A stretch of DNA of 42,757 nucleotides, from contig CANIJN010000013.1 in assembly GCA_947467625.1 (NCBI GenBank), positions 1 through 42,757 of the forward strand, written 5' to 3'. The notes beneath the pieces were generated by a model. That model was not told the DNA's origin. It made no database searches and saw nothing but the letters and a program-made list of their open reading frames with translations. This stretch comes from Opitutia bacterium (GTDB taxonomy: Bacteria; Verrucomicrobiota; Verrucomicrobiia; Opitutales; Opitutaceae). This document shows, piece by piece, positions 12,540-13,625 of this stretch. A program made the translations under genes and the position numbers. Every line of letters starts with the position of its first letter. Position 1 is the stretch's first letter.

Positions 12540-13625
12540 TCAGAGATCGTCGTCGTGGGCGACGTTGAGTGACGAGGCTTTCTGATATTCGGTGACGCGA
12601 CCCTCGAAGAAGTTTTGCTCCTTCTTGATGTCCATCATCTCAGCGAGCCAAGGCAGCGGGTTCTTCACGCCGGGGGCGAGCGGGGCGAGGCCGACACCCT
12701 CGAGGCGACGATCCGCGATGTAATCGATATAGGTGACGAACTCTTCGACCGCGAGGCCCACGGCGTTTACCGGCAGGCAATCCCGGATAAATTCTTTCTC
12801 GAGCTGGATCGCCTCGGCCATGAGCGCCCGGAGCTCTTCCTTAAACTCCGTGGTCCAAATCTCACGGTTTTCTTCGATGAGATCCATGAAGAGATTCCGG
12901 AATACCTCGATGTGGTTGGACTCGTCGCGGAGCGTGTAGCGGAACATCTGGCCGATGCCAGGAAACTTGTTCTGGCGATAAAGCGACAGCACCATACCGA
13001 AAAGACCGTAAAACTGGGTGCCTTCCATGCACTGTCCGAAAACGAAGATGTTTTTCGCGAGAAGTTTTTTATTCTCCGGCCGCGTCAGGTCGATGTCGCG
13101 GCGAAGCGACTTGGAAACCCGCGTCACAAACTCGTTCTTCCTGACGATGGTCGGCACATCCTCGAACATCGCCTCGCACTCGTGCGGGTTGATGCCGAGC
13201 GATGCGATCATGTAGAGCAGGGAATCGGCGTGGATGTTTTCCTCGTGCGCGTGACGGCCCAAGACGAGCTTGAGCTCGGGGGCGGTCACCAGCTCGCGGA
13301 CGACGTGCTGGATGTTATCGCCGACGATTCCCTCAGCGGCCGAAAAATAACCGATCCCCATCCGAATGATCCAACGCTCGACATCGGAAACCGTCTTCTC
13401 ATCGCGCCATTGCTCGATGTCCTTACCCATCGGGATATCTTCAGGCTCCCAGTGATTCGCCTTCATCTTGCGGTAAAGATCGTAAGCCCACTGATACTTC
13501 AAAGGCAGCAGATTGAAGCACATGGTCTCGCGGCCATTGATGACTTTCTTGGCGGCAAAAGCCGCTTCGGCTTTATCCTGATCAAGGACGAAGGTCTTGG
13601 AGCCGACTTGAAAGATTTTTTGCAT
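12540..13625 (-). CDS. nrdB: class I ribonucleotide reductase small (beta) subunit, class Ic-like, with Leu at the radical-tyrosine site
   Basis: The start is the ATG giving MQKIFQVGSK (361 residues); an upstream extension is not conserved. All six metal ligands are visible: Glu98, Glu129, His132, Glu201, Glu235 and His238. Four residues after His132, where E. coli NrdB has radical Tyr122 and Chlamydia has Phe127, this protein has Leu136 (HEENIHADSLLY). The C-terminus (KNPLPW, FFEGRVTEYQKASSL) strongly resembles the chlamydial class Ic protein, and Tyr346 needed for radical transfer is kept. By family knowledge, class Ic proteins use an Mn/Fe centre instead of a tyrosyl radical; that this one does is inference. 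It is the first gene of an nrdB-nrdA unit. Confidence 0.95.
   Translation of the reverse strand: MQKIFQVGSKTFVLDQDKAEAAFAAKKVINGRETMCFNLLPLKYQWAYDLYRKMKANHWEPEDIPMGKDIEQWRDEKTVSDVERWIIRMGIGYFSAAEGIVGDNIQHVVRELVTAPELKLVLGRHAHEENIHADSLLYMIASLGINPHECEAMFEDVPTIVRKNEFVTRVSKSLRRDIDLTRPENKKLLAKNIFVFGQCMEGTQFYGLFGMVLSLYRQNKFPGIGQMFRYTLRDESNHIEVFRNLFMDLIEENREIWTTEFKEELRALMAEAIQLEKEFIRDCLPVNAVGLAVEEFVTYIDYIADRRLEGVGLAPLAPGVKNPLPWLAEMMDIKKEQNFFEGRVTEYQKASSLNVAHDDDL

Follow-up and report, generated by a model that had tools for sequence, protein, structure and literature searches.

The question raised by this locus is how a class I ribonucleotide reductase (RNR) small subunit, NrdB, would hold its oxidant when leucine stands at the position of the radical tyrosine. 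The gene lies in a window of 42,757 nucleotides, by which we mean the whole stretch of DNA that was analyzed. The open frame is present at 12540 to 13625, as in the initial annotation, and runs on the minus strand from an ATG at 13625 to a stop codon ending at 12540, encoding 361 amino acids; the plus-strand reading of the same interval is interrupted by a stop. The product matched the NCBIfam profile PRK07209.1 (333.2 bits, with a cut-off of 309) and the Pfam family PF00268 (222.1 bits). A tRNA-Leu gene is located upstream of nrdB (14147 to 14230, minus strand), and a tRNA was the sole Rfam match over 8500 to 14500. No promoter-like site was found in a scan of 12300 to 14300, and the two terminator-like sites in that interval, compared with a mean of 3.2 in shuffled sequences, offered nothing useful.

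The six metal ligands of NrdB are intact, and both the codons and the alignment bore out the numbers originally given to them. Glu98, the first ligand, which is Asp in proteins with Tyr, was placed by ligand count and codon reading at 13332 to 13334, and the other five by locus matches and codon reading: Glu129 and His132 within codons 129 to 132 (13230 to 13241), Glu201 at 13023 to 13025, and Glu235 and His238 within codons 235 to 238 (12912 to 12923), all on the minus strand. The initial annotation had also reported Leu136 where Tyr or Phe would be expected, and it was right. The codon is CTG (13218 to 13220, minus strand), and the residue aligns to Phe127 of Chlamydia trachomatis NrdB with no gap nearby (C. 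trachomatis, EEAVHTHTFLYI; query, EENIHADSLLYM). This alignment rules out another Tyr in register with the radical site, a possibility that had been singled out for checking. Leu occupied the radical position in 111 of the 111 matched loci, with identities down to 77.6%; the matched loci are 111 out of 112, L002 being an nrdA locus, and some contigs, reached by two tools, are counted twice.

The residues of the electron route were also found. Tyr347 (12585 to 12587, minus strand), the C-terminal radical-transfer Tyr, is invariant in alignment A1 and is presumably the equivalent of Escherichia coli Tyr356. By alignment, Tyr230 (12936 to 12938, minus strand) is the counterpart of the electron-relay Tyr222 of C. 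trachomatis, and Trp59 (13449 to 13451, minus strand) is that of C. trachomatis Trp51 and E. coli Trp48, the roles of these residues being those described in the part of PMC4118035 covered here.

When these features were set against the known classes, the marks of class Ia/Ib were absent, since the residue four after the first His is Leu136 and the first ligand is Glu98, not Asp. The pattern of class Ie was likewise not seen, all six ligands being present and no Tyr being found at the site. The sequence marks of class Id, class Ie and R2lox were examined in NrdB and are absent. The broad marks of class Ic, for their part, are all there: an inert residue at the site, four Glu and two His ligands with Glu first, and the relay counterparts Tyr230 and Trp59. 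The narrow mark, Phe itself at the site, is replaced by Leu136. Judged by its sequence, then, NrdB is class-Ic-like and is not class Ic in the narrow sense, because the broad marks are present and the narrow one is not.

The Leu form is widespread in the phylum. In a sample of 387 genomes (completeness of 85 or more requested), 126 genomes, including the one studied here, had PF00268 matches, at 136 places, all of which were fetched and classified. The 136 proteins comprised 87 with Leu and Glu first, 29 with Tyr and Asp, 14 with Phe and Glu, 3 fragments, 1 half gene, 1 ligand-less paralogue and 1 R2lox-like protein. Leu NrdB was present in 85 of the 126 genomes (81 with Leu only, 2 with Leu and Tyr, 1 with Leu and the ligand-less paralogue, and 1 with a split Leu gene). 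Together with the 111 matched loci, these 85 genomes rule out a sequencing error or a single mutation behind Leu136. Leu (87 proteins) or Phe (14) was always accompanied by Glu as the first ligand, and Tyr (29) always by Asp, with no exceptions among the 130 six-ligand proteins, which are related to one another and so do not represent independent events. A broader set that overlaps with this one (28 rows with Leu, 21 with Phe and 32 with Tyr) was equally free of exceptions to the rule. Most record titles among the best 80 relatives were Opitutaceae, Opitutae, Opitutus or Verrucomicrobia.

Two Leu NrdB copies were found in metagenome-assembled genomes bearing other titles, one titled Rubrivivax (L030 in G425; 88% identity, 3.1-kb contig) and one titled Planctomycetaceae (L068 in G426; 90% identity, 6.7-kb contig); they may reflect contamination or transfer. 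Among the matches listed for 200 genomes of the phylum of G425, none besides that of G425 itself exceeded 39% identity. In the phylum of G426, 32 of 199 genomes had an NrdB match, and two besides G426 have a Leu NrdB at 77% identity; the best 20 of the 32 matches carry Leu in 3 cases, Phe alongside Glu in 7, and Tyr alongside Asp in 10. None of the plasmid (400) and phage (2309) records with a match reached 60% identity to the query. Ten plasmid NrdB proteins were divided between Tyr with Asp (5) and Phe with Glu (5), and the best 80 viral loci all had Tyr with Asp.

Some relatives carry altered copies. The ligand-less paralogue (L163:87-1145, plus strand, G416:C8) is in tandem with a normal Leu NrdB and lies immediately upstream of it; its ligand positions read Q/E/R/E/V/R, its C-terminal Tyr is lost and its DDDDL tail is retained. 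It recalls yeast Rnr4, which we take to be a scaffold subunit. Second tandem copies at L198:1301-2383 (plus strand, G164:C11) and L202:57-1085 (minus strand, G252:C42) keep the ligands and the Leu, with Tyr230 changed to Asn and Tyr138 to His. At L221 (G374:C32) NrdB is split over two frames, by an error or a real break.

To place the Leu proteins, an NrdB tree was built with columns 98 and 136 excluded and with C. trachomatis as the sole chlamydial row. The 29 Leu rows, including the ligand-less paralogue, formed one clade (support of 100/98), and a second (98/91) united C. trachomatis with other Phe and Tyr rows, 33 in all. The best tree thus placed the Leu clade outside the C. trachomatis group; it adjoins mostly phage Tyr proteins, weakly (83/71), at a point where the program warns of several long branches meeting. 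The Phe label required three changes on this tree. Forcing a joint Leu and Phe clade cost 22.3 log units and was not rejected (p-AU of 0.119), in a test made on a 70-row quick tree from which 13 long-branch rows of 83 were left out. The phylogeny proposed as a check in the initial annotation therefore gives a separate Leu clade in the best tree and, at the same time, tolerates a joint one. R2c is polyphyletic according to Lundin et al. 2010, as reported in PMC3824934, and Tyr-less NrdB proteins are said in the covered part of PMC4390871 to form a tight cluster; in our best tree the Tyr-less forms do not all fall in one tight cluster. It is possible, and we propose it tentatively, that the Leu proteins are a separate class I subclass that lost the radical Tyr and exchanged Asp for Glu in events separate from those of the chlamydial line, and whose own polar metal surroundings (H125, Q198, T203, T231 and N237) supply a proton or select another metal pair. 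If this were true, they would represent a second way in which nature achieves a metal-only oxidant of cysteine.

The surroundings of the metal site were compared at selected positions across rows with Leu (28), Phe (21) and Tyr (32), with the R2lox-like protein L222 and the ligand-less paralogue excluded. Besides L136, the residues typical of the Leu proteins (present in 90% or more of the Leu rows and in no more than 2 of the other 53 rows) were K55, H125, H127, N130, F194, G197, Q198, T203, L208, M227, T231, N237, I239 and R243. H125 lies four residues before the ligand E129, and T231 four before the ligand E235, so that by helix geometry both should face the metal site. We take their positions to be those of E. 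coli Trp111 and Ile234. We also assume a W111/E204 contact in the E. coli protein, on which the search of the RNR literature returned nothing. The conserved H125 is a candidate, by hypothesis, for a proton donor or relay. Where the proton comes from when the C. trachomatis cofactor is reduced is described as speculative, with no proximal donor apparent, in the part of PMC11883743 covered. The relay residue Tyr230 was found in 26 of the 28 Leu rows, and Phe205 in all 28.

The C-terminal tail had been called chlamydial-like. That description holds for the motif NFFExRVxEYQ..SL, common to both proteins, and fails at the very end, which is acidic and terminates in Leu instead of Trp. Thus, 157 of 160 distinct Leu proteins (the ligand-less paralogue being among the 160) have an acidic stretch followed by a final Leu, DDEL or DDDL in most cases. 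By comparison, 12 of 14 Phe rows end in Trp followed by up to two residues, the other two being the R2lox-like L222 and a protein cut by a contig end. The acidic pattern was also observed in 2 of 29 Tyr rows; the halves of the split G374 gene were skipped in these counts.

An AlphaFold2 model of NrdB, made with 43 sequences, reached a pLDDT of 84.2 and a pTM of 0.82, with low confidence from about residue 334. C. trachomatis NrdB structures took Foldseek ranks 1 to 13, and 4d8g was matched with a VIA Z of 41.5 over 323 residues at 3.0 A and 4m1h over 310 residues at 1.7 A, a structural likeness that by itself is no proof of function. These best PDB matches are only 36 to 38% identical to NrdB, no solved structure from the Leu clade was present among the PDB matches listed, and within alignment A1 no Leu protein falls below 49% identity to the query.

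The partner gene nrdA starts 181 bases after the nrdB stop (9014 to 12358, minus strand) and encodes a class I large subunit of 1114 amino acids, assigned by its open frame, Pfam, alignment and the NCBIfam profile PRK07207.1 (1269.2 bits, with a cut-off of 965). The motifs SSCYL, NLCTEI, CNLGS, TTYYLR and CEAC are all present, with roles that we assume to be those of E. coli NrdA. Of 80 relative loci, 75 have nrdA after nrdB in the same orientation; three of the other five end within 500 bases, and L060 and L063 have no nrdA within 5 kb.

Three ATP-cone regions had been attributed to NrdA. One is canonical, at amino acids 156 to 241 (11636 to 11893, minus strand; PF03477, 68.9 bits). The other two, amino acids 1 to 150 (11909 to 12358, minus strand) and about 266 to 360 (11279 to 11563, minus strand), gave no Pfam ATP-cone match when each was searched alone. 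The second of them is cone-like by alignment to part of Pseudomonas aeruginosa NrdA (5im3), which we take to have two ATP-cones. The first is cone-like by predicted fold: modeled alone it reached a pLDDT of 88.8, and its top Foldseek matches were RNR and NrdR structures with ATP-cones (best E of 4.3e-3, probability of 1.00, none reaching E 0.001; matched ranges were not in the table). Hence one canonical cone and two further plausible cone-like regions are the count we retain, because Pfam sees one and the others are drawn from the 5im3 alignment and the predicted fold.

The genome (5.6 Mb in 362 contigs, 96.1% complete) contains one PF00268 match and one PF02867 match; at that completeness, neither NrdD (PF13597) nor NrdI (PF07972) was found. 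Within the family, 27 of the 28 sampled genomes with PF02867 have exactly one match, and 7 more have none. In the order sample, 103 of 116 genomes have PF02867 and 24 of the 103 match it two or three times (one of these genomes belongs to the family, and some of the matches are gene pieces), so that "sole RNR" is not valid order-wide. This is nevertheless the only RNR found in this genome, and probably in most of its family. Seven near-complete genomes of the same family (G010, G011, G014, G029, G128, G189 and G390) have neither PF00268 nor PF02867 and presumably depend on class III only. A Nramp-type Mn importer, the only importer type searched for, had no match in the genome, which matters if the cofactor holds Mn.

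Our preferred reading is that the oxidant of NrdB is centered on the metals, most likely as Mn(IV)/Fe(III) in the manner of class Ic, in a protein with its own clade, its own metal surroundings and its own tail; we give it a probability of roughly 0.6. The oxidant would probably be stored in the two metal ions because an inert Leu replaces the radical Tyr, and the metal-centered reading is further suggested by the Glu in first place, the retained class Ic relay and the finding of a single NrdB. What the protein itself offers on this point is intact ligands, the inert Leu, Glu first, relay residues, conservation and single copy. A class Ic-type enzyme with its oxidizing equivalent in the metal centre had been proposed from the outset, and those features favor it; Mn/Fe is assigned by analogy, however, the Leu proteins form a separate clade in the best tree and the end of the tail is not chlamydial.

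In class Ic, Mn(II)Fe(II) reacts with O2 to give Mn(IV)Fe(IV), and one electron then yields Mn(IV)Fe(III), as described in the covered parts of PMC4118035 and PMC8463856. The metals, oxidation states and electron route suggested here for the Leu NrdB are modeled on C. trachomatis. No stable tyrosyl radical would form. The two-metal site would most likely hold Mn at site 1 and Fe at site 2, would react with O2 (or H2O2) to reach Mn(IV)Fe(IV), and would receive one extra electron through Tyr230 and Trp59 to settle in a resting Mn(IV)/Fe(III) state. With substrate-bound NrdA, the metal site would draw an electron from the active-site Cys by way of the NrdA Tyr-Tyr pair, Tyr347 and Trp59/Asp234, and catalysis would start.

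The metals could still be others. Since the residues near the ligands differ from those of both class Ic and the Tyr proteins, metal preference might depart from that of class Ic, and remodeled surroundings (H125, H127, N130, Q198, T203, T231, N237 and others) might tune the site to Mn(III)/Mn(IV), as in class Id, or to a high-valent diiron pair. The separate clade and the Glu in first place, common to class Id, are compatible with this. Class-Id-like metals are nonetheless disfavored by the absence of the Id marks (the query has Gly102 and Ile105, and all 28 Leu rows have Gly at the first of these positions and Ile or Val at the second), by the Tyr that class Id retains at the site and by weaker matches to class Id structures (Z of about 33 against 41.5), and we regard a metal pair other than Mn/Fe as rather unlikely. 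A tyrosyl radical moved to another residue is improbable. Its best candidate would be Tyr93, five residues before the ligand Glu98, which was found in 28 of 28 Leu rows, in none of the 21 Phe rows and in all 157 Leu proteins of a larger set; but Tyr93 also accompanies a normal radical Tyr in 4 of the 32 Tyr rows, and 48% of the larger set's 29 Tyr proteins have it (the R2lox-like L222 was placed in the Phe group of that set), so that Tyr93 is no replacement for the radical Tyr. By helix geometry, moreover, a residue at i-5 is expected to face away from the metals, and two other tyrosines, Tyr138 and Tyr206, are common to 21 of 21 Phe rows.

A further alternative is an NrdB that is inactive or a scaffold, with another RNR serving the cell. 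Inactive forms do arise, as the ligand-less paralogue of one relative (L163) indicates, and at 96.1% completeness a second RNR could be missing from the assembly. Against this, the ligands and relay residues are all intact and conserved across a large clade, and the family members that have any PF02867 carry a single one in 27 of 28 cases. A dead subunit is unlikely given the single-copy RNR, the adjoining nrdA in most relative loci and the NrdA motifs kept, and NrdB should be active as the working small subunit because the genome has one NrdB, one NrdA-type gene, no NrdD and no NrdI. We hold the inactive alternative to be very improbable.

The substitution as such counts as known, because Leu, Ile and Val at the radical site of R2c proteins are documented in Högbom 2010, as cited in one sentence of PMC3824934. 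What is added here is the breadth of the clade, the residues near the metal site, the tail and the single-copy status. No work on a Leu NrdB was found in the literature searched, by title and abstract start and with most subscription papers outside the search, which fits the earlier remark that the Leu variant is less studied. In a network of >31,000 small subunits, Ic-like nodes were grouped with Ia-like ones, according to the covered part of PMC8463856. Within the literature covered, a metal-only Mn/Fe RNR oxidant has been characterized in a single protein, the Phe-bearing NrdB of C. trachomatis. The large Leu clade would offer a natural test of how the Mn/Fe pair is selected, of the origin of the coupled proton and of whether the joint change of Asp to Glu and loss of Tyr occurred more than once. 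It also calls for caution, in that "no Tyr" should not be read as class Ic without metal data.

Among known systems, class Ie has its metal ligands replaced, and carries DOPA in place of a metal cofactor in the sources covered. Glu in first place is shared by class Ic, R2lox and BMMs, and Asp by class Ia/Ib, as stated in the covered part of PMC4118035. Class Id (NrdBi) likewise has Glu first and holds its oxidant on the metals; the accounts covered give it Trp at seven residues after the first ligand and, in the studied subgroup, Lys at four, and it keeps the Tyr and these marks, in contrast to the Gly102 and Ile105 of the query. R2lox also has Glu first, and the R2lox-like L222 has Phe at the site; R2lox, however, has Ala at the Phe197 position (PMC4118035) and no C-terminal Tyr (PMC3824934), in the parts covered, whereas the query has Phe205 and Tyr347. 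The class O ferritin-like subunit described in the covered part of PMC9531940 resembles NrdB in having Phe or Leu at the radical position, but belongs to a different RNR class, and its C-terminal Tyr, at 239 in the example, is not followed by the extension of ~10 residues. The Phe-type NrdB proteins of other Verrucomicrobiota, haloarchaea, alphaproteobacteria and the phylum of G426 share the lack of Tyr and the Glu in first place; they differ in having Phe instead of Leu and are placed with C. trachomatis or among Tyr-type relatives. The C. trachomatis class Ic R2 (1syy, 4d8f and 4m1i) departs from the query in its identity of 36 to 38%, its Phe127, its other residues near the ligands, its group in the best tree and the Trp ending of the Phe proteins in place of the acidic tail, and it shares with it the fold, the six ligands with Glu first, the lack of a radical Tyr, the counterparts of Trp51, Tyr222 and Phe197, and the NFFExRVxEYQ motif.
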